64,000 nt of DNA from Natrinema salifodinae. Lineage in GTDB: Archaea > Halobacteriota > Halobacteria > Halobacteriales > Natrialbaceae. The position numbers and the translations under genes are program-made. The notes beneath the pieces were generated by a model. It was not told the origin of the DNA. It worked only from the letters and a program-made list of their open reading frames with translations, and did not search any database. Of the stretch, positions 50,659 to 59,488 are shown in pieces. The stretch lies in NCBI RefSeq assembly GCF_900110455.1, contig NZ_FOIS01000002.1, positions 124,001-188,000 on the forward strand. Direction: 5' to 3'. Numbering within the stretch: the stretch's first letter is position 1; each line of letters begins with the position of its first letter.

Positions 50659-52209
50659 CTACAGCGGGATGTTGCCGTGTTTCTTGTCCGGGTTCGACTC
50701 GCGCTTGGTCTGGAGCATCTCCAGGTCGTCGATCAGCCGCGGCCGGGTCTCCGTCGGCAGGATGACGTCGTCGAGGAAGCCCTTGTCCGTCGCGGTGTAG
50801 GGGTTGGCGAACTCTTCGCGGTACTCCTCGATGAGTTCGTCCCGGAGTTCGTCGGGATTGTCGGCTTCCTCGAGTTCGTTGCGGTAGAGGATGTTGACCG
50901 CACCCTGCGGGCCCATGACGGCGATCTCGGCGGTCGGCCAGGCGTAGTTGACGTCGGCGCCGAGGTTCTTCGAGGCCATGACGCAGTAGGCGCCGCCGTA
51001 GGCCTTCCGGGTGATGACGGTCAGCAGCGGGACGGTCGCCTCGGCGTAGGCGTAGAGCAGTTTCGCACCGTGGCGGATGATCCCGCGGTGCTCCTGGTCG
51101 GTCCCGGGCATGTAGCCGGGGACGTCGACGAAGGTGACGATCGGGATGTTAAAGGAGTCACAGAAGCGGACGAACCGCGAGCCCTTCATCGAGGAGTCGA
51201 CGGTCAGCGTGCCGGCGTTGACGCGGGGCTGGTTGGCGACGATGCCGACCGAGCGGCCGTCGAGGCGACCGAAGCCGACGACGAGTTCCTTGGCGAAGTT
51301 CTCCGCGACCTCGAAGAACGAGCCCTGGTCGACGACGCTGTCGACGACGTCGACCATGTCGTAGGGCTTCTGCGGGCTCGGCGGAACGATGGTCTCGAGT
51401 TCCTCGTCGCGGCGGTCGGGATCGTCCCACGGTTCGACGCGTGGCGGATCCTCGACGTTGTTCTGCGGGAGATAAGAGAGCAGCCGTTTGATGTCGTCTA
51501 GGGCCTGTTCCTCGCTCTCGCAGGCGAACTGGGCGACGCCGGTCTTGTTCGCGTGGGTCACCGCGCCGCCGAGTTCCTCGTGGGTGACCTCTTCACCGGT
51601 GACCGTCTTGGTGACGCCCGGTCCGGTGATGTACATGTGACTCGTGTCCTTCACCATGAAGATGAAGTCGGTGATCGACGGCGAGTAAACCGCACCCCCG
51701 GCGCAGGGCCCCATGATCCCCGAAATCTGGGGGACGACGCCGCTGGCCTCCTGATTCCGACGGAAGATCTCGGTGAAGCCGGCCAGGCTCTTGACGCCCT
51801 CCTGGATGCGCGCGCCGGCGGAGTCGTTGAGCCCGACGATGGGAGCGCCCACCTCCATCGCCATGTCCATCACCTTGCAGATCTTCTCGGCGAACACTTC
51901 GCCGAGCGAGCCGCCGAAGACGGTGAAATCGTGGGCGAAGACGAAGACGGTTCGGCCGTTGACCTCGCCGTAGCCCGTGACGACGCCGTCGCCGGGAATC
52001 TTTCGCTCTTCCATCCCGAACTGGCTCGTCTGGTGGGTCCGGAGCTGGTCGAACTCCGTGAAGGTGCCATCGTCGAGGAAGTAGTCGATCCGCTCGCGAG
52101 CGGTCATCTTCCCCTTGTCGTGTTGCTTCTCGATGCGCTCTTCGCCGCCGCCCTTGCGGGCTTCCTCGCGGAACTCCTCGAGTTCGTCGATGCGGTCTTC
52201 CATCGTCAT
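50659..52209 (-). CDS. pccB: Propionyl-CoA carboxylase beta subunit (carboxyltransferase)
   Basis: 516 residues. Transfers the carboxyl group from biotin to acyl-CoA. Both crotonase-fold halves are seen: [12 protein letters not shown]-type [20 protein letters not shown] and [15 protein letters not shown] in the first, then [40 protein letters not shown] and [19 protein letters not shown] in the second. The oxyanion-hole Gly-Gly pairs are intact. Start: ATG at 52209, or 52203. First gene of the cluster; the 5S gene separates it from pccA. Confidence 0.95.
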
Positions 52210-52400
52210 TGTTGATGAACCCTCCCGCTCATTGCCCGAGGAAACGGCCACGTCCCCCAAAAACGTTCGGTAAATCGGAGTGGTATCCTACCGACGGTGT
52301 GCGAAATTATGCCACATTGGTTCGGTTTCGCTCACAGTCAGTTTCGGTGAGACGTGAGCAGCCATAATTCGTCTCTGGGACGCGTTGTGGCACAAACAGC

Positions 52401-52408
52401 TATATAGG
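52401..52408 (+). promoter_or_regulatory. TATA box of the binding-protein gene
   Basis: tatatagg, about 21-28 bases before the ATG at 52429, predicts a leaderless transcript for the permuted binding protein. The gene therefore looks expressed. Confidence 0.6.
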
Positions 52409-52428: not shown

Positions 52429-53706
52429 ATGGTACGGCAAGTCAGTCGACGGGGGGTGCTCAGTGGAATCGGTGGTGCGGGTGCGATCGGTCTCGCCGGA
52501 TGCATCGGCGACGAAGGGGCGGTCGAAGGGGGCGGTCCGGACGTCCTAAACGTTATCGGCTACCCGGAGAGCGGCATTCAGATCTTCCGGGACTTCTACG
52601 CCGACTTCGACACCGGGACGGAAATCATCGTTCCCGACGGACTGCAGGACGGCGATCTCCCCGGCGAAGTCGGGAACGATATGGCGAACGTCACCGGCAC
52701 CGCGCCGGCGTCCCAAGGCCCGCACGAGGAGGCCTTCGCGGAGCTCTACGAGGACGAGTACGGCGAATCACCCGGGGTGTTCACCTCGCACACGTTCGAC
52801 GCCGTTGCGATGTGTACCCTCGCGAACGTCGCGGCCGGTAACAACGACGGCCAGGCGGTCCGAGATCAGATGCGCCGGGTCGCGAACCCTGGCGGCGACG
52901 AGTACGGGCCCGGCGAACTTCAGGCGGCCGCTGAAGCCGTCGCGGCCGGCGACGAGATCACCTATCAGGGCGCTTCAAGCGCGGTCAACTTCGACGACGT
53001 CGGCGACCCCGCAGAGGCCGCCTACGACGTTTGGGAGTTCAGCGACGATGACATCGAAACGGTCGATACGATCACCTTCGAAGGGAACGATCCCGGTGGC
53101 GAGATGGCCAACGAATCACCCGGCGGAACCGGCCGCGACGTGATGGTCGCGATGTTGCTCCCCGAAACGGGGGACCTCGGCGAACTCGGCACCCCGATGA
53201 TCGACGCCGGTCGCCTGGCCATTCAACGGATGGAGGGGGTCGACCTCACGTTCGATCTGCAGGTCGAGGACACGGAGACCGACGAGGACACGACCCTCAG
53301 CAACGGCGGTGCGCTCATCGACGCGGGGTATCCCGCGATCGTCGGCGCCGCGTCGTCCGGCAACTCCGTCCCGCTGGTCGGCGAGACCAGCAGCGCGAGC
53401 GTCGTCCAGTGTTCGCCGGCCAGTACGGCACTGTCCCTGTCGAACGTCGAGGACGACGGCTACTTCTTCCGGACCGCGCCGAGCGACCTGCTGCAAGGGC
53501 AGGTGATGGCGGAGGTCTCCGCGAATCGCCTCGACGCGGACCAGGTGGCCACGCTGTACGTCAACAACGACTACGGGCAGCAGCTCTCGGAGCAGTACGT
53601 CGAGTCCGTCGAGGACGATCAGGGCGGCGAGGCGCTCAGTGAGGTCTCGTTCGAGCCTGAACAGGGCTCGTACACCGGCGAACTCGAGTCCGCGCTGGCC
53701 GAGTAG
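52429..53706 (+). CDS. Branched-chain amino-acid binding lipoprotein, circularly permuted
   Basis: 425 residues. The signal MVRQVSRRGVLSGIGGAGAI ends in lipobox LAGC (Cys25), Tat type. In the LivJ-like family the mature protein starts with VAMLLPETGDLGELGTPM and ends with the GASSAVNFDD block. Here the order is reversed: residues 37-218 are the usual second half (DVLNVIGYPESGIQIFRDFY, VFTSHTFDAVAMCTLANVAA, TYQGASSAVNF). A linker (219-235, GNDPGGEMANESPGG) leads to residues 236-425, the usual first half, ending ELESALAE. Both halves are complete, so total length is normal. It is convergent with the livHMGF operon. Confidence 0.88.
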   Translation: MVRQVSRRGVLSGIGGAGAIGLAGCIGDEGAVEGGGPDVLNVIGYPESGIQIFRDFYADFDTGTEIIVPDGLQDGDLPGEVGNDMANVTGTAPASQGPHEEAFAELYEDEYGESPGVFTSHTFDAVAMCTLANVAAGNNDGQAVRDQMRRVANPGGDEYGPGELQAAAEAVAAGDEITYQGASSAVNFDDVGDPAEAAYDVWEFSDDDIETVDTITFEGNDPGGEMANESPGGTGRDVMVAMLLPETGDLGELGTPMIDAGRLAIQRMEGVDLTFDLQVEDTETDEDTTLSNGGALIDAGYPAIVGAASSGNSVPLVGETSSASVVQCSPASTALSLSNVEDDGYFFRTAPSDLLQGQVMAEVSANRLDADQVATLYVNNDYGQQLSEQYVESVEDDQGGEALSEVSFEPEQGSYTGELESALAE

Positions 53707-53809: not shown

Positions 53810-54514
53810 CTACCCGCCGAGGAACTGCTGGCGGACCTCGTCGTCGTTCAGCAGGGCCTCGCCGGCGTCCTCGTATCGGTTCGAGCCCTGAACGAGGACG
53901 TAGCCCCGGTCGCAGCGGCGCAAGGCCTCCTTCGCGTTTTGTTCGACGACCAGGACGGCGGTACCGTTGGCGTTGATCGCGTCGACGTGGTCGAACATCT
54001 CGTCGACGAGGTCGGGGGCCAAACCCGCGCTGGGTTCGTCGAGCAACAACAGGTCGGGATCGAGCATCAGCGCGCGCCCCATCGCGACCATCTGCTGTTG
54101 GCCGCCGCTCATCGAGCCCGCCTTCTGATCCTGTCGCTCGCGTAGCACGGGGAACTGATCGAACACGCTCTCGAGCGCCGCCTCCGGCACCTCGTCGAGG
54201 ATGTACGCGCCCATCTCGAGGTTCTCGCGGACCGTCAGCGACGGGAAGACGTTGTCGTTCTGGGGAACGTAGCCGATTCCCTCGTGGATGATCTCGTCGG
54301 GCGAGCGGCCGGTGATGTCCGCCCGCTTGAACTCGACCGTGCCCCCCATGTACGTCGTCAGTCCGAAGACGGATTTCATGGCCGTCGACTTCCCGGCGCC
54401 GTTGGGGCCGACGATGACCACGTACTCGTCTTCGGCCACCTCGAGATCGATACCGTGCAGGATCTGCAGGTCTCCGTAGCCGGCGTCGAGGTCCCTGACG
54501 TCGAGCATCGCCAT
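53810..54514 (-). CDS. livF: ABC transporter ATPase LivF
   Basis: 234 residues. One of two ATPases driving branched-chain amino-acid uptake. Walker A VGPNGAGKS, LSGGQ equivalent MSGGQQQMVAMGRALM, Walker B LLLLDEPSAGLAP, and switch His replaced by the VVEQN form usual in LivF. The start codon shares its first base with the last base of the livG stop. Last gene of the livHMGF operon, convergent with the permuted binding-protein gene. Confidence 0.95.
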   Translation of the reverse strand: MAMLDVRDLDAGYGDLQILHGIDLEVAEDEYVVIVGPNGAGKSTAMKSVFGLTTYMGGTVEFKRADITGRSPDEIIHEGIGYVPQNDNVFPSLTVRENLEMGAYILDEVPEAALESVFDQFPVLRERQDQKAGSMSGGQQQMVAMGRALMLDPDLLLLDEPSAGLAPDLVDEMFDHVDAINANGTAVLVVEQNAKEALRRCDRGYVLVQGSNRYEDAGEALLNDDEVRQQFLGG

Positions 54515-55347
54515 CAGACCTCACCTCCGAGATAGGCTTCGATGACCCGCTCGTTCGAGGTGATCGCGCCGGGCGTCCCCTCGGCCAGGACCGACCCCTG
54601 GTGCATGACGATGACCCGCTCGCAGTTCTCCATGATGAGATCCATGTCGTGTTCGACGATCAGAAACGTGTACCCCTCCTCGCGGAGGTCGTGGACGTGT
54701 TCGAGCAGCTTCTTCTCGAGCGTGGGGTTGACACCCGCGAACGGCTCGTCGAGCAGGAGCATCTCCGGATCGGTCATCAACGCGCGCGCCAACTCGAGTA
54801 GTTTTCGCTGGCCGCCCGAGAGTGTCCCCGCTTTCTCCTCCGCGAGGTGCTGAATCTCGAAAAATTCGAGGGTACCCCACACGCGTTCCAGGAGCTCGCG
54901 CTCCTCCCGGACGACGTCCCGGCGGGCGACCGGCAGCACCGATCGCCAGAGCGCTTCGCCCCGCTGGCGTTTCGCCGGCAGCATCAGATTCTCGAGGACT
55001 GTCATGTTCGCCATCTCCCGAGCGATCTGGAACGTCCGAACGAGACCGTACTCGGCACAGTAGTAGGGCCTGATGCCGGTGATGTCCTCTCCCTGGAACG
55101 TCACCGTCCCGGCGTCTGGTTCGTGGATCCCCGTGATGCAGTTGAACGTCGTCGACTTCCCGGCGCCGTTGGGACCGATCAGTCCGGTCATCGACCCCGA
55201 CTCGACCGCGAACGTCGCGCCGTCGACGGCCGTGATCCCGCCGAAGCGCTTGACCAGGCCGTCGACGGCCAGTTCGACGTCGTCCATCGATCGATCGGGG
55301 CGCTCGCTCGTCAGGGAGTCGGTGGATTCGGCGGTCGTATCGCTCAC
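54514..55347 (-). CDS. livG: ABC transporter ATPase LivG
   Basis: 277 residues. Walker A IGPNGAGKST, signature LSGGQRKLLELARALM, Walker B MLLLDEPFAGVNP, H-loop VEHDMDLIMEN. It starts with a 25-residue Thr/Ser/Asp tail before the ATPase core. Overlaps livM by four bases. The C-terminal EGTPGAITSNERVIEAYLG is the LivG-type tail. Confidence 0.95.
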   Translation of the reverse strand: MSDTTAESTDSLTSERPDRSMDDVELAVDGLVKRFGGITAVDGATFAVESGSMTGLIGPNGAGKSTTFNCITGIHEPDAGTVTFQGEDITGIRPYYCAEYGLVRTFQIAREMANMTVLENLMLPAKRQRGEALWRSVLPVARRDVVREERELLERVWGTLEFFEIQHLAEEKAGTLSGGQRKLLELARALMTDPEMLLLDEPFAGVNPTLEKKLLEHVHDLREEGYTFLIVEHDMDLIMENCERVIVMHQGSVLAEGTPGAITSNERVIEAYLGGEV

Positions 55348-56684
55348 TGGGTATCACCTCCGCGATCGGAATCGGTTCCAGGTCCGGCTGGGGTCTCGCC
55401 TCCGGCCTCGGCGACGGGTCGATCCGTCAGGGGGATCGCTGCCGCCGCCTCCTCCCGATGGCCGAGCAGCCCGTCGGACCGCCGATGCATGAGGAGGACG
55501 AGCGCGACGCCCATCAGCACGAACTGCAGCGTCAGGAACTCGTCGAAGGTGTACCGCAGGAGCGGCGCCGGGTTCGCCGAGAGCAGCGGCGCCACGGCGC
55601 CGGCGAACGTGTTCGGCGCGTCGCCGACCGTGATGACCTCCTCGATCAGACGGCGCACGTAGCGTGGCCCCTCGAACAGCACCGCGACGAAGAGCCCAGA
55701 GCCGAGGACGCTGCCGGTGTTCGAACCGGCGCCACCGATTATCAGTGCGATCCAGATGTAGAACGTGACGTGCGGTCGGAACGCCGTCGGCGTCACGCCG
55801 GTGCGGCGGAACCGCCAGAGGATGCCGGCCAGGCCCATCAGAGCACAGCCGAGCACGAACACCTTGATCTTGAATCGATTCGTGTTCTTCCCGAGCGATT
55901 GGGCGGCCTCCTCGTCCTCGCGGATCGCTTTGAGGACGCGTCCGAACGGCGATCGACTGGTCCGCTGGATGAGCCAATAGAACCCGATCAGGACGAGTAC
56001 GAGCACGATCGAATAGGCCAGCGACCGCGCCTGCGTCGGCCCGAAGCCGAACAGGTCGTTCGTGAGGTCGACGAACGAGGAGAACACCTCGAGCTCGAAG
56101 ATGACGTTCATCGGATCGCCGTAGTTTCGAGTGAGACCGCGACCGCCGCCGGTCCCCAGTTCGGCCCCGAGGACGGAGAACCGCTGGGCCGCGCCCGAGG
56201 TGAGCCCCAACCGGACGATCTCCGCGAACGCGATCGTCGTGATCGCGAAGTAGTCGGCCCGAAGGCGCAACGCGGGGATCGCGACGACCAGGCCCGCCAG
56301 GCCGGCGGCGGCGACGCCCCCGGCGATCGCGATCGGCATCGGGAGCCCGAGCCCCGGGTACTGCGCGGCGCCGGTCGGATCGACCGGTTTCGCCAGCATC
56401 ATCGTCACGTACAGGCCGATCGCCATGAACCCCGCGACGCCGATGTTGAACAGACCGGTGTACCCCCAGTGGAGGTTCAGCGCCAGCGTGACCATGCCGT
56501 AGACGGCGATCAGGTAGGTCATCCGCCGCAAGGTGTTGACGATCCCGTCGAGGGAGTAGCCGAGCGCGAGTCCGATCGCCGCGTAGACGAGATAGATCGC
56601 CGCGAAGGCTACGAGGATCTTCACGGCGTCCCGTTCCCAGAGCGCTTCCAGTCGAGCCCGTGTGTCCGTCGCGTTCACGCTCAT
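55344..56684 (-). CDS. livM: ABC transporter permease LivM
   Basis: 446 residues, with about 9-10 membrane segments and the LivM hallmark HWGYTGLFNIGVAGFMAIG. Then comes RSPFGRVLKAIREDEEAAQSLG, the coupling helix that contacts the ATPase. A Gly/Pro/Ser tail ends the protein. Overlaps livH and livG by four bases each. Confidence 0.94.
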   Translation of the reverse strand: MSVNATDTRARLEALWERDAVKILVAFAAIYLVYAAIGLALGYSLDGIVNTLRRMTYLIAVYGMVTLALNLHWGYTGLFNIGVAGFMAIGLYVTMMLAKPVDPTGAAQYPGLGLPMPIAIAGGVAAAGLAGLVVAIPALRLRADYFAITTIAFAEIVRLGLTSGAAQRFSVLGAELGTGGGRGLTRNYGDPMNVIFELEVFSSFVDLTNDLFGFGPTQARSLAYSIVLVLVLIGFYWLIQRTSRSPFGRVLKAIREDEEAAQSLGKNTNRFKIKVFVLGCALMGLAGILWRFRRTGVTPTAFRPHVTFYIWIALIIGGAGSNTGSVLGSGLFVAVLFEGPRYVRRLIEEVITVGDAPNTFAGAVAPLLSANPAPLLRYTFDEFLTLQFVLMGVALVLLMHRRSDGLLGHREEAAAAIPLTDRPVAEAGGETPAGPGTDSDRGGDTQ

Positions 56685-57793
56685 GCCGTCGTCTTCCCTC
56701 CGAAGAGTCCAGACGGTCTGATTAGCAGGACGAGGATCATCAGCAGGAACGCGGTGATCGTCGTGAAGTCACCGCCGGGGAGCCAGATCATCGACATGTG
56801 CATGCCGACGCCGATGACCAGGCCGCCGAAGATGGCCCCGTAGATCGAGCCGATCCCGCCGAGGATCACCGCCGCGAAGATCAGCAACAGCAGCAACCAC
56901 CCGAACTGCCAGTCGATCGTGCCCGTCCACAGCACCATGAGATAGCCCGCGGTACCGGCGAGGCCGCCGCCGATCAGCCAGGTCCACCGGATCACCCGTT
57001 CGGTCGGGATGCCGGTGACGAGGGCCAGGTCTCGGTTGTCCGACATCGCTCGCATCGCTTTCCCGAGTTTCGTCCGCTGGAGCAAGAAGTGAACGCCGAG
57101 CATCAGTGCAACCGCGGCGACGATCAACGTCGCGTCGTGGGCGCCGATCGACACGTAGCCGTCGACCAGCAGGAAATCGACGGATGGTACGCTCGCGGTC
57201 GTGCCGCGCGTGCTGCTCGAGTAGACGAACACGAGGACGTAGCGAAGTGCGAACGCCACGCCGATGCTCGTGATCAGCAGCGGAATACCGCCCGATCCTC
57301 GGACCGGTTTGAAAGCGAAGCGGTCGATCAGCAACACGAAAAGCGCCGTCGCGACGCCGGCCACGAGCAGGCCGGCGAGGACGGCGATCGGCGTCGCGGT
57401 GATCGCGATGTCGAGTTGTGCTCCGGAAACCTCGCGCTGAGGCGCGACGAGGACGAGCGGACCGACGCTCGCGACACCCCAGCCAGCGACGAGGTACGTG
57501 ACTCCCCACCCGAAAAACGCACCCGTCGTCACGTAGTCTCCGTGAGCGAAGTTCGCGAAGTTGAGGATGCTGTAGGTCATCGAGAGCCCGATCCCAGCGA
57601 GCCCGATGATCAGCCCGTAGAGGATTCCTTCCGTCACGTATCGAGCGACACGTGAGAGACTGTACGTTCCGTTTGCGAGACCGAGAATCAGGTCCCCCAG
57701 CAACGCCACAGCACCGATCCCCACGACCAGTAACAGGAGCTGCTCGGACGAGAGACTTCGACCCCGATTGACCGCCTCATCTACTGTAGACAT
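56681..57793 (-). CDS. livH: ABC transporter permease LivH
   Basis: 370 residues, about 9-10 membrane segments. LivH motifs: NFAHGDYVTTGAFFGWG, TKLGKAMRAMSDNRDLALVTGI (coupling loop), and GGIGSIYGAIFGGLVIG. First gene of the operon. A minus-strand TATA-like catataac (57835-57843) about 45 bases upstream suggests a short leader. Ligand preference is not given by the sequence. Confidence 0.94.
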   Translation of the reverse strand: MSTVDEAVNRGRSLSSEQLLLLVVGIGAVALLGDLILGLANGTYSLSRVARYVTEGILYGLIIGLAGIGLSMTYSILNFANFAHGDYVTTGAFFGWGVTYLVAGWGVASVGPLVLVAPQREVSGAQLDIAITATPIAVLAGLLVAGVATALFVLLIDRFAFKPVRGSGGIPLLITSIGVAFALRYVLVFVYSSSTRGTTASVPSVDFLLVDGYVSIGAHDATLIVAAVALMLGVHFLLQRTKLGKAMRAMSDNRDLALVTGIPTERVIRWTWLIGGGLAGTAGYLMVLWTGTIDWQFGWLLLLLIFAAVILGGIGSIYGAIFGGLVIGVGMHMSMIWLPGGDFTTITAFLLMILVLLIRPSGLFGGKTTA

Positions 57794-58090: not shown

Positions 58091-59488
58091 ATGGCACAAC
58101 GTGAGACGTGGGCAACGAGAACAGGGTTCATCCTCGCTGCGGTCGGGAGCGCAGTGGGGCTCGGAAACATCTGGCGGTTCCCGTTCGTCGCGGGCGAAGG
58201 CGGGGGCGCGGCGTTCCTCGTCATGTACCTGCTGTTCGTCGGGCTCATCGGGTTCCCGGCGATTCTCGTCGAGTTCGTCGTCGGCCGCCGGACGGAGCGC
58301 AATCCGGTCGGCGCGCTGATGCAACTGGGCGGCAACACCTGGAAGTACATCGGCGGGGTGTTCATCGTCACCGGCTTCGTGATCCTGTCGTACTACAGCG
58401 TGGTCGCCGGCTGGTTCATTCGCTACTTCCTGGAAGGCCTCCGCAGCAGCTACGCGAGCCAGCTCGCGGGCTTCGAGAGCGCCGCCGCCGAGGCCGGCGC
58501 CCCGGTCGCGGCCGTCATGTTCGGTGAGCTGTCGACCGGCATCGACGCGTTCGTCTTCCACACACTGTTCATGGCGGTGACGATCGGCGTCGTCGCGCTC
58601 GGTATCCGTCGCGGCATCGAGCTCGCGACGAAGCTGATGGTGCCGGCGATCGTCCTTCTGCTCGTCGGAATGGCCGTCTGGGCGTTCACCCTTTCCGGGT
58701 CGAGCGCAGGCTACGAGTACTACCTGTCGCCGGAGTTCGGCGTCATCCTCGACAACTGGACGAGCCTGCTCCCGGCCGCGGCCGGCCAGGCGTTCTTCAC
58801 GCTCTCGCTCGGGATGGGCGTGATGATCACCTACGCGTCCTACCTCGGCGAGGACCGGAACCTGACCAAGGACGCGCTCACGATCATCGGGTTCGACACC
58901 GGCATTGCGTTCCTGACCGGCCTGGTCGTGTTCCCGATCTTCTTCGCGGCGGGGATCACTGAGCCCGGCGAGGGCGGTCCCGGTGCGATCTTCGTGTCGA
59001 TGACCGAGGCGTTCGCGACCCTCTCCGGCGGTCGCATCCTCGGGATCCTGTTCTTCGGCACCGTCGCGATCGCGGCGCTGTCGAGCGCGATCTCGCTGCT
59101 CGAAGTCGTAACGGCGTATCTGATCGACGAGAAGGGCGTCGAGCGGTGGAAGGCGTCTCTGGGGATGGGTGGCGTCATCTACCTGCTCGGCGTGCCCGTC
59201 ACGTTCGACCTGATCTTCCTCGACCTGCTCGACCTGTTCGCGGACGGTATCCTGCTCGTGTTCGGCGCGCTCGTGTTGATGATCCTGGTCGGCTGGATCG
59301 CACCGCAGTTCGCCGTCGAGGAGCTCTCGAAGGGGATCGGGGACCTCGGTTCGCTCGGCCAGGCGTGGATCTGGGCGGTCCGCGTCCCGATCATCATCGT
59401 GCTGCTCGTCTCCCTGTCGCTGGGCGTCATGGACTACGTCGAGTTCCTCACCACGGACTTCTCGGGCTGGTTAACCGAGAACCTGTAA
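58091..59488 (+). CDS. Sodium-dependent transporter, NSS (SNF) family
   Basis: 465 residues, about 12 membrane segments of the LeuT fold. Family signatures: WATRTGFILAAVGSAVGLGN (first unwound helix with Na+ ligands), IWRFPFVAGEGGGAAFLVMY, and late FFTLSLGMGVMITYASYLGE. It takes up an amino acid or related solute with sodium, in keeping with a high-salt lifestyle. Substrate not readable. Divergent from the liv operon. Confidence 0.93.
   Translation: MAQRETWATRTGFILAAVGSAVGLGNIWRFPFVAGEGGGAAFLVMYLLFVGLIGFPAILVEFVVGRRTERNPVGALMQLGGNTWKYIGGVFIVTGFVILSYYSVVAGWFIRYFLEGLRSSYASQLAGFESAAAEAGAPVAAVMFGELSTGIDAFVFHTLFMAVTIGVVALGIRRGIELATKLMVPAIVLLLVGMAVWAFTLSGSSAGYEYYLSPEFGVILDNWTSLLPAAAGQAFFTLSLGMGVMITYASYLGEDRNLTKDALTIIGFDTGIAFLTGLVVFPIFFAAGITEPGEGGPGAIFVSMTEAFATLSGGRILGILFFGTVAIAALSSAISLLEVVTAYLIDEKGVERWKASLGMGGVIYLLGVPVTFDLIFLDLLDLFADGILLVFGALVLMILVGWIAPQFAVEELSKGIGDLGSLGQAWIWAVRVPIIIVLLVSLSLGVMDYVEFLTTDFSGWLTENL

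Follow-up and report, generated by a model that had tools for sequence, protein, structure and literature searches.

As a rule, a natural circular permutation is known from just one ancient pair of proteins. The LivK protein TM1135 of Thermotoga maritima (PDB entry 3td9), which is the best structural match of the proteins described here, has the normal chain order of LivJ-type binding proteins. A naturally permuted type I lipoprotein is known from Treponema: TpMglB-2 (Tp0684), the founder of Type Ic / Cluster Bc (PMC4990184). Circular permutants have also been found from structures among glycine betaine-binding proteins, using CPSARST; these are substrate-binding proteins (SBPs) too, but they form a different binding-protein group (PMC2395249).

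Here, we describe an SBP encoded in a 64,000-nucleotide stretch of the Natrinema salifodinae genome (the window), together with its haloarchaeal homologues, which have either the normal chain order (CP0), the order seen in the window (CP1), or a third order (CP2). CP1 and TpMglB-2 share a circularly permuted, bilobed type I fold and both are lipoproteins, but TpMglB-2 is bacterial and belongs to the sugar-binding MglB branch (PMC4990184), whereas the archaeal family has its best matches in LivK/LivJ. In TpMglB-2, the opening follows the third N-lobe strand (PMC4990184); in CP1 it lies in the C-lobe, and in CP2 before the second N-lobe strand. The Type Ic trait of having the first three N-lobe strands at the C-terminus is absent, CP2 having moved only strand 1 and helix 1. 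Because the branch, the domain of life, the cut sites, and the linker differ, the haloarchaeal family is outside that subgroup, yet it is of the same kind as Type Ic / Cluster Bc. An initial reading of the DNA made without database searches (the sequence-only reading) had expected a rare natural example of a permuted type I protein. It is a natural permutant, but one belonging to an order-wide family and preceded by TpMglB-2 (PMC4990184).

Domain order of the window protein

The gene (52429..53706, + strand) encodes a permuted type I substrate-binding lipoprotein of 425 residues, as judged from its translation, Pfam, phmmer searches of the PDB, and an AF2 model. Its translation begins with the Tat (RR) lipoprotein signal that the sequence-only reading had recognized (MVRQVSRRGVLSGIGGAGAIGLAGC; 52429..52503, +), ending at Cys25 of the lipobox LAGC. 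A short tether (residues 26–36; 52504..52536, +), the length of which varies widely among homologues, leads from the lipid anchor to the domain. Based on the 3td9 alignment and on conservation, the domain consists of block B (residues 37–218; 52537..53082, +), which contains Y45 and D70, and block A (residues 236–425; 53134..53703, +), which contains S309/S310 and T333. In normal LivJ/LivK proteins block A is the first half of the sequence and block B the second; here, block B takes first place. A new linker (residues 219–235; 53083..53133, +) joins what were formerly the C- and N-termini. After the signal, the protein starts again as GGGPDVLNVIGYP, and its C-terminal end is ELESALAE. The residue numbers, junction sequences, and linker reported earlier are all correct in the translated ORF. 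Shortly upstream of the ATG lies a TATATA box (52401..52406, +), a motif found three times in the window versus 0.24 expected; by analogy with known haloarchaeal promoters, it is likely to be the promoter of a leaderless transcript.

Evidence for the swap comes from two phmmer alignments to the single chain of 3td9: residues 238–420 match chain residues 17–198, and residues 37–156 match chain residues 205–327. Both alignments are co-linear and their order is swapped, as anticipated by the sequence-only reading, which had placed residues 37–218 before 236–425 and had proposed an alignment with LivJ family members, in swapped order, as a check. In Pfam, the protein matches Peripla_BP_6 with E = 3.7e-22 (79.9 bits; cut-off, 31.7), with residues 238–423 corresponding to profile positions 2–187. 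With Pfam and phmmer taken together, both lobes match the type I family profile significantly and the canonical chain order is absent; hence, the protein is a permuted variant of the Peripla_BP_6 / type I SBPs. A combination of two unrelated half-domains is ruled out, since both halves map to adjoining parts of one LivK chain. These data support interpretation of the window protein as a true circular permutation.

The five other Peripla_BP_6 loci in the same genome all have normal order across the profile, and only the window locus is swapped. A normal-order paralogue in this genome, at C3:728625-729728 (locus L164 of genome G000), shows 37–48% identity, and no livFGMH match was found inside the 20 kb fetched around it.

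Predicted structure, binding cleft, and linker

The AF2 model of CP1 is confident (pLDDT 74.5, pTM 0.80) and shows a bilobed α/β fold, as does the CP2 model (pTM 0.82); LivK 3td9 is the best Foldseek match of both. For CP1, matches to LivK and other binding proteins cover only some 195 of approximately 350 residues, which is what a sequential aligner should yield with a permuted protein. In the model, the N-lobe strands stay together and the opening site lies in the C-lobe, between the helix formed by residues 416–424 (preceded by strand 401–408) and strand 39–43. The bilobed fold that the sequence-only reading had named as support was obtained, whereas the new termini, expected at the hinge, are located away from it, between a C-lobe helix and the next strand. 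Judging from β/α topology, loops preceding strands would be on the face of a lobe opposite the ligand. The lipid anchor of CP1 should accordingly be attached at the distal end of the C-lobe, whereas that of normal-order proteins would be at the distal end of the N-lobe.

The cleft residues of LivJ/LivK are retained, with Y45, D70, S310, and T333 aligning with the amino-acid site and being identical in 101/101 CP1 and 3/3 CP2 proteins. With the 3td9 alignment as a guide, we take S310, T333, Y45, and D70 to be the equivalents of LIV-BP S79, T102, Y202, and E226, respectively. Within the linker, G224, G232, and G233, as well as the adjoining R236, are invariant over 17 diverse members, which points to a single origin. 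Toward its 3' end, the linker has a GGxGR segment before strand 1 that is similar to the tether at the mature N-terminus of CP0 proteins. Such a linker, like the rest of the CP1 arrangement, lacks a counterpart in LivK 3td9 and LivJ-type proteins, which have no connection between the old termini.

Genomic context

The SBP gene faces, in convergent orientation, a set of minus-strand genes that resemble a branched-chain amino-acid importer: the ATPases livF (53810..54514) and livG (54514..55347) and the permeases livM (55344..56684) and livH (56681..57793), with best NCBIfam matches to LivF, LivG, LivM, and a UrtB/LivH-type model, respectively. This convergent arrangement is found in nearly every carrier, and the genetic linkage to livFGMH is that of a LivJ/LivK receptor. 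The left flank is a pccB-like carboxyltransferase gene (50659..52260, −), conserved across several genera in genomes with CP0, CP1, or CP2, and in the family to which the window belongs the SBP gene sits between pccB and livF. A neurotransmitter:sodium symporter-like gene is located at 58091-59488 in the window; in relatives, it occurs on either side of the SBP-liv block.

The pccAB-SBP-livFGMH slot is occupied by a CP0 protein in seven genomes (G068, G052, G049, G015, G007, G104, and G151), by CP1 in the window, Natrialba, Natronorubrum, and Haloterrigena, and by CP2 in G016 and G017. The CP0 homologues (for example, those of G068, G049, and G015) have the same cleft residues as CP1, but their blocks are in the normal A-B order, and they end at ...ETIxFEA without a linker. 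Since normal-order homologues fill the same slot in other genera, CP1 is likely the working binding protein of the transporter. In G042 (L131:9800-10800), which lacks livFGMH but still has pccAB and the symporter gene, the permuted gene is frameshifted; decay of the SBP gene where the liv genes are absent fits a shared function. The NCBIfam scores of the window protein are far under the curated cut-offs, and no fitting NCBIfam model was found for the permuted protein.

Distribution and selection

Full-length matches in CP1 order, with 46–95% identity, were found in about 158 of the 392 Halobacteriales genomes sampled (counting genomes with a best E < 1e-100), and in 24 of 125 genomes of the window's family. 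Carriers belong to at least nine family-level groups, and some of the assemblies are single-contig chromosomes. Full-length CP1 was located in 79 named or MAG loci, with named carriers in Haloterrigena, Natrialba, Natronorubrum, Halopiger, Halorussus, Haladaptatus, Halorubrum, Haloferax, Haloquadratum, and Halobellus. These 79 loci, which were kept from a scan of approximately 85,000 species that left out 29 weaker loci, are all haloarchaeal, and a 393-genome sample of the phylum contained no carriers outside Halobacteriales below 1e-70. Pairwise dN/dS values among close relatives are between 0.04 and 0.17, which indicates purifying selection.

Decayed copies do occur: besides the frameshifted gene in G042, which has lost its liv genes, the permuted gene in G265 (C2:2081225-2083864) is split at residues 321/324 by about 1.4 kb, possibly a mobile element. 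Assembly error or a pseudogene that mimics a permutation is nevertheless a negligible prospect for the family, given the same full-length order in so many independent genomes, single-contig chromosomes included, the low dN/dS values, and the invariant cleft residues; we consider both ruled out. The earlier view of a true permutation rather than decay agrees with this distribution, with the purifying selection, and with the confident structural model.

Origin of CP1

For phylogenetic analysis, sequences were rotated to a common order. In the resulting SBP tree, the split between CP0 and CP1+CP2 received 100/99 support; with the distant normal-order sequences L083 and L002 added, support for the CP0/CP1 branch was 66%. 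The analysis shows a single origin of CP1 within the sampled haloarchaeal homologues. We treat the normal order as the ancestral one, since the solved bacterial relatives have it. In a tree of the LivFGMH transporter proteins, the locus L135 (G134), which encodes a CP1 protein, sits on a long branch basal to the CP0 transporter clade, which may reflect a partner swap or a tree artefact.

The standard route to a circular permutation is tandem duplication followed by fusion and trimming (PMC3320104). In three Haladaptatus-type loci (L136, L137, and L138), two full-length CP1 genes lie in tandem on the same strand beside livFGMH, meaning that the starting state needed for such a route does occur. 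The fetched loci contained neither a fused duplicate nor a leftover half-copy beside the gene, which leaves the duplication route unproven. General theory also predicts a route by fission and fusion, in which separate half-genes are rejoined in the other order (PMC3320104), and the lack of a fused 1.5- or 2-copy intermediate in the fetched loci would fit that route as well. Against it, free-standing half-genes were seen in none of these loci, the Haladaptatus pairs represent the state that duplication requires, and the tether-like GGxGR segment of the linker looks as if the mature N-terminus of a second copy had been fused to the C-terminus of the first. We regard fission and fusion as unlikely and infer that CP1 probably arose by tandem duplication and trimming.

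A second permutation

CP2 was found in three genomes: G016 (L028), G017 (L029), and G366 (L125). In window numbering, its order behind the signal is 274–425, 37–218, linker, 236–273. Strand 1 and helix 1 have moved to the C-terminus, and the chain is opened before N-lobe strand 2, at a site corresponding to residues 271–273 of block A (53239-53247). The former A-B joint is uninterrupted once more (ALSGDPDTLVVIGYP), and the CP1 linker is retained. The AF2 model (pLDDT 85.9, pTM 0.82) is better than that of CP1, and Foldseek aligned it with 3td9 LivK with a TM score of 0.74 over 331 columns.

CP2 is nested twice inside CP1, with G016/G017 near Halorubellus-like CP1 proteins and G366 as sister to the CP1 protein L123, and a single CP2 clade was rejected (AU p = 0.0003). 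The LivFGMH tree, which is independent of the SBP alignment, agrees with both placements of CP2. The precise end points are not identical in the two lineages (...QVNGEI / SEIGLQ versus ...EADLDIS / SGLEIN), as expected of independent events. Compared window by window, CP2 is nearer to CP1 than to CP0 over its whole length (near-tied at the L028 joint, 0.71 versus 0.70), which implies that CP2 was made from CP1. Taken together, the trees and end points show two independent origins of CP2 within the CP1 clade.

The one feature that speaks for the reverse order of events, with CP2 older than CP1 or of one origin and CP1 derived from it, is that CP2 keeps the natural A-B joint that CP1 lacks. Such a history is very improbable in view of the double nesting in both the SBP and transporter trees, the rejection of a single clade, the closer similarity to CP1, and the differing end points. 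Gene conversion from CP0 to CP2 at the restored joint was also considered and was rejected, as no CP0-like stretch was found, although the L028 joint is near-tied.

Function and position of the lipid anchor

CP1 is, with high probability, the lipid-anchored binding protein of the adjacent LivFGMH importer and a permutant of the CP0 protein found at the same locus. With the bilobed fold and cleft residues retained, it would work as an ordinary Venus-flytrap receptor with a putative specificity for amino acids, the substrate being assigned from homology alone. The ligand would bind in the cleft, upon which the protein would close, dock on LivHM as other type I receptors do, and hand over the ligand; docking of CP1 on LivHM is likewise presumed. 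What sets CP1 apart is chain order: the 17-residue linker joins its old termini, and the new ends are at a point of the C-lobe where a helix used to lead into the following strand, which would place the lipid anchor on the C-lobe rather than on the N-lobe.

Tether position may or may not play a role. The chances are about even that the permutation is selectively neutral and that the lobe carrying the anchor is unimportant: the long, flexible Gly/Asp-rich tethers of many homologues should buffer the position of the anchor, and at this one locus all three forms (CP0, CP1, and CP2) work with similar transporters. On the other hand, both CP2 events return the anchor to the N-lobe, as in CP0, although two cases are too few for a test. 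A more speculative possibility, which we hold only tentatively, is that the three reshuffles (CP0 to CP1 once and CP1 to CP2 twice, in the same loop) track the anchor-bearing lobe from N to C and back to N, with topology being tuned to tethering and docking.

Implications

A search of papers available without subscription yielded no reports of permuted haloarchaeal binding proteins or of serial re-permutation at one SBP locus. The amino-acid branch, the archaeal host, the C-lobe cut site, and the serial re-permutation appear to be new. The family also carries a warning, in that profile searches detect only half of such permuted proteins.

Within one archaeal order, one genomic slot next to one kind of transporter is filled by the unpermuted protein, by a primary permutant, and by two secondary permutants of independent origin. 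With this set of forms, one can test which openings are compatible with a two-lobed fold and whether folding or ligand closure changes. The idea put forward for TpMglB-2, that a permuted chain is an adaptation to being anchored by a lipid (PMC4990184), can be tested as well. If the tuning possibility were true, chain topology would be an evolvable trait, adjusted to the way in which the protein is tethered to the membrane and docks on the transporter. Many species share the swap, which is old, and the family provides a natural test case for how a protein survives being rewired.
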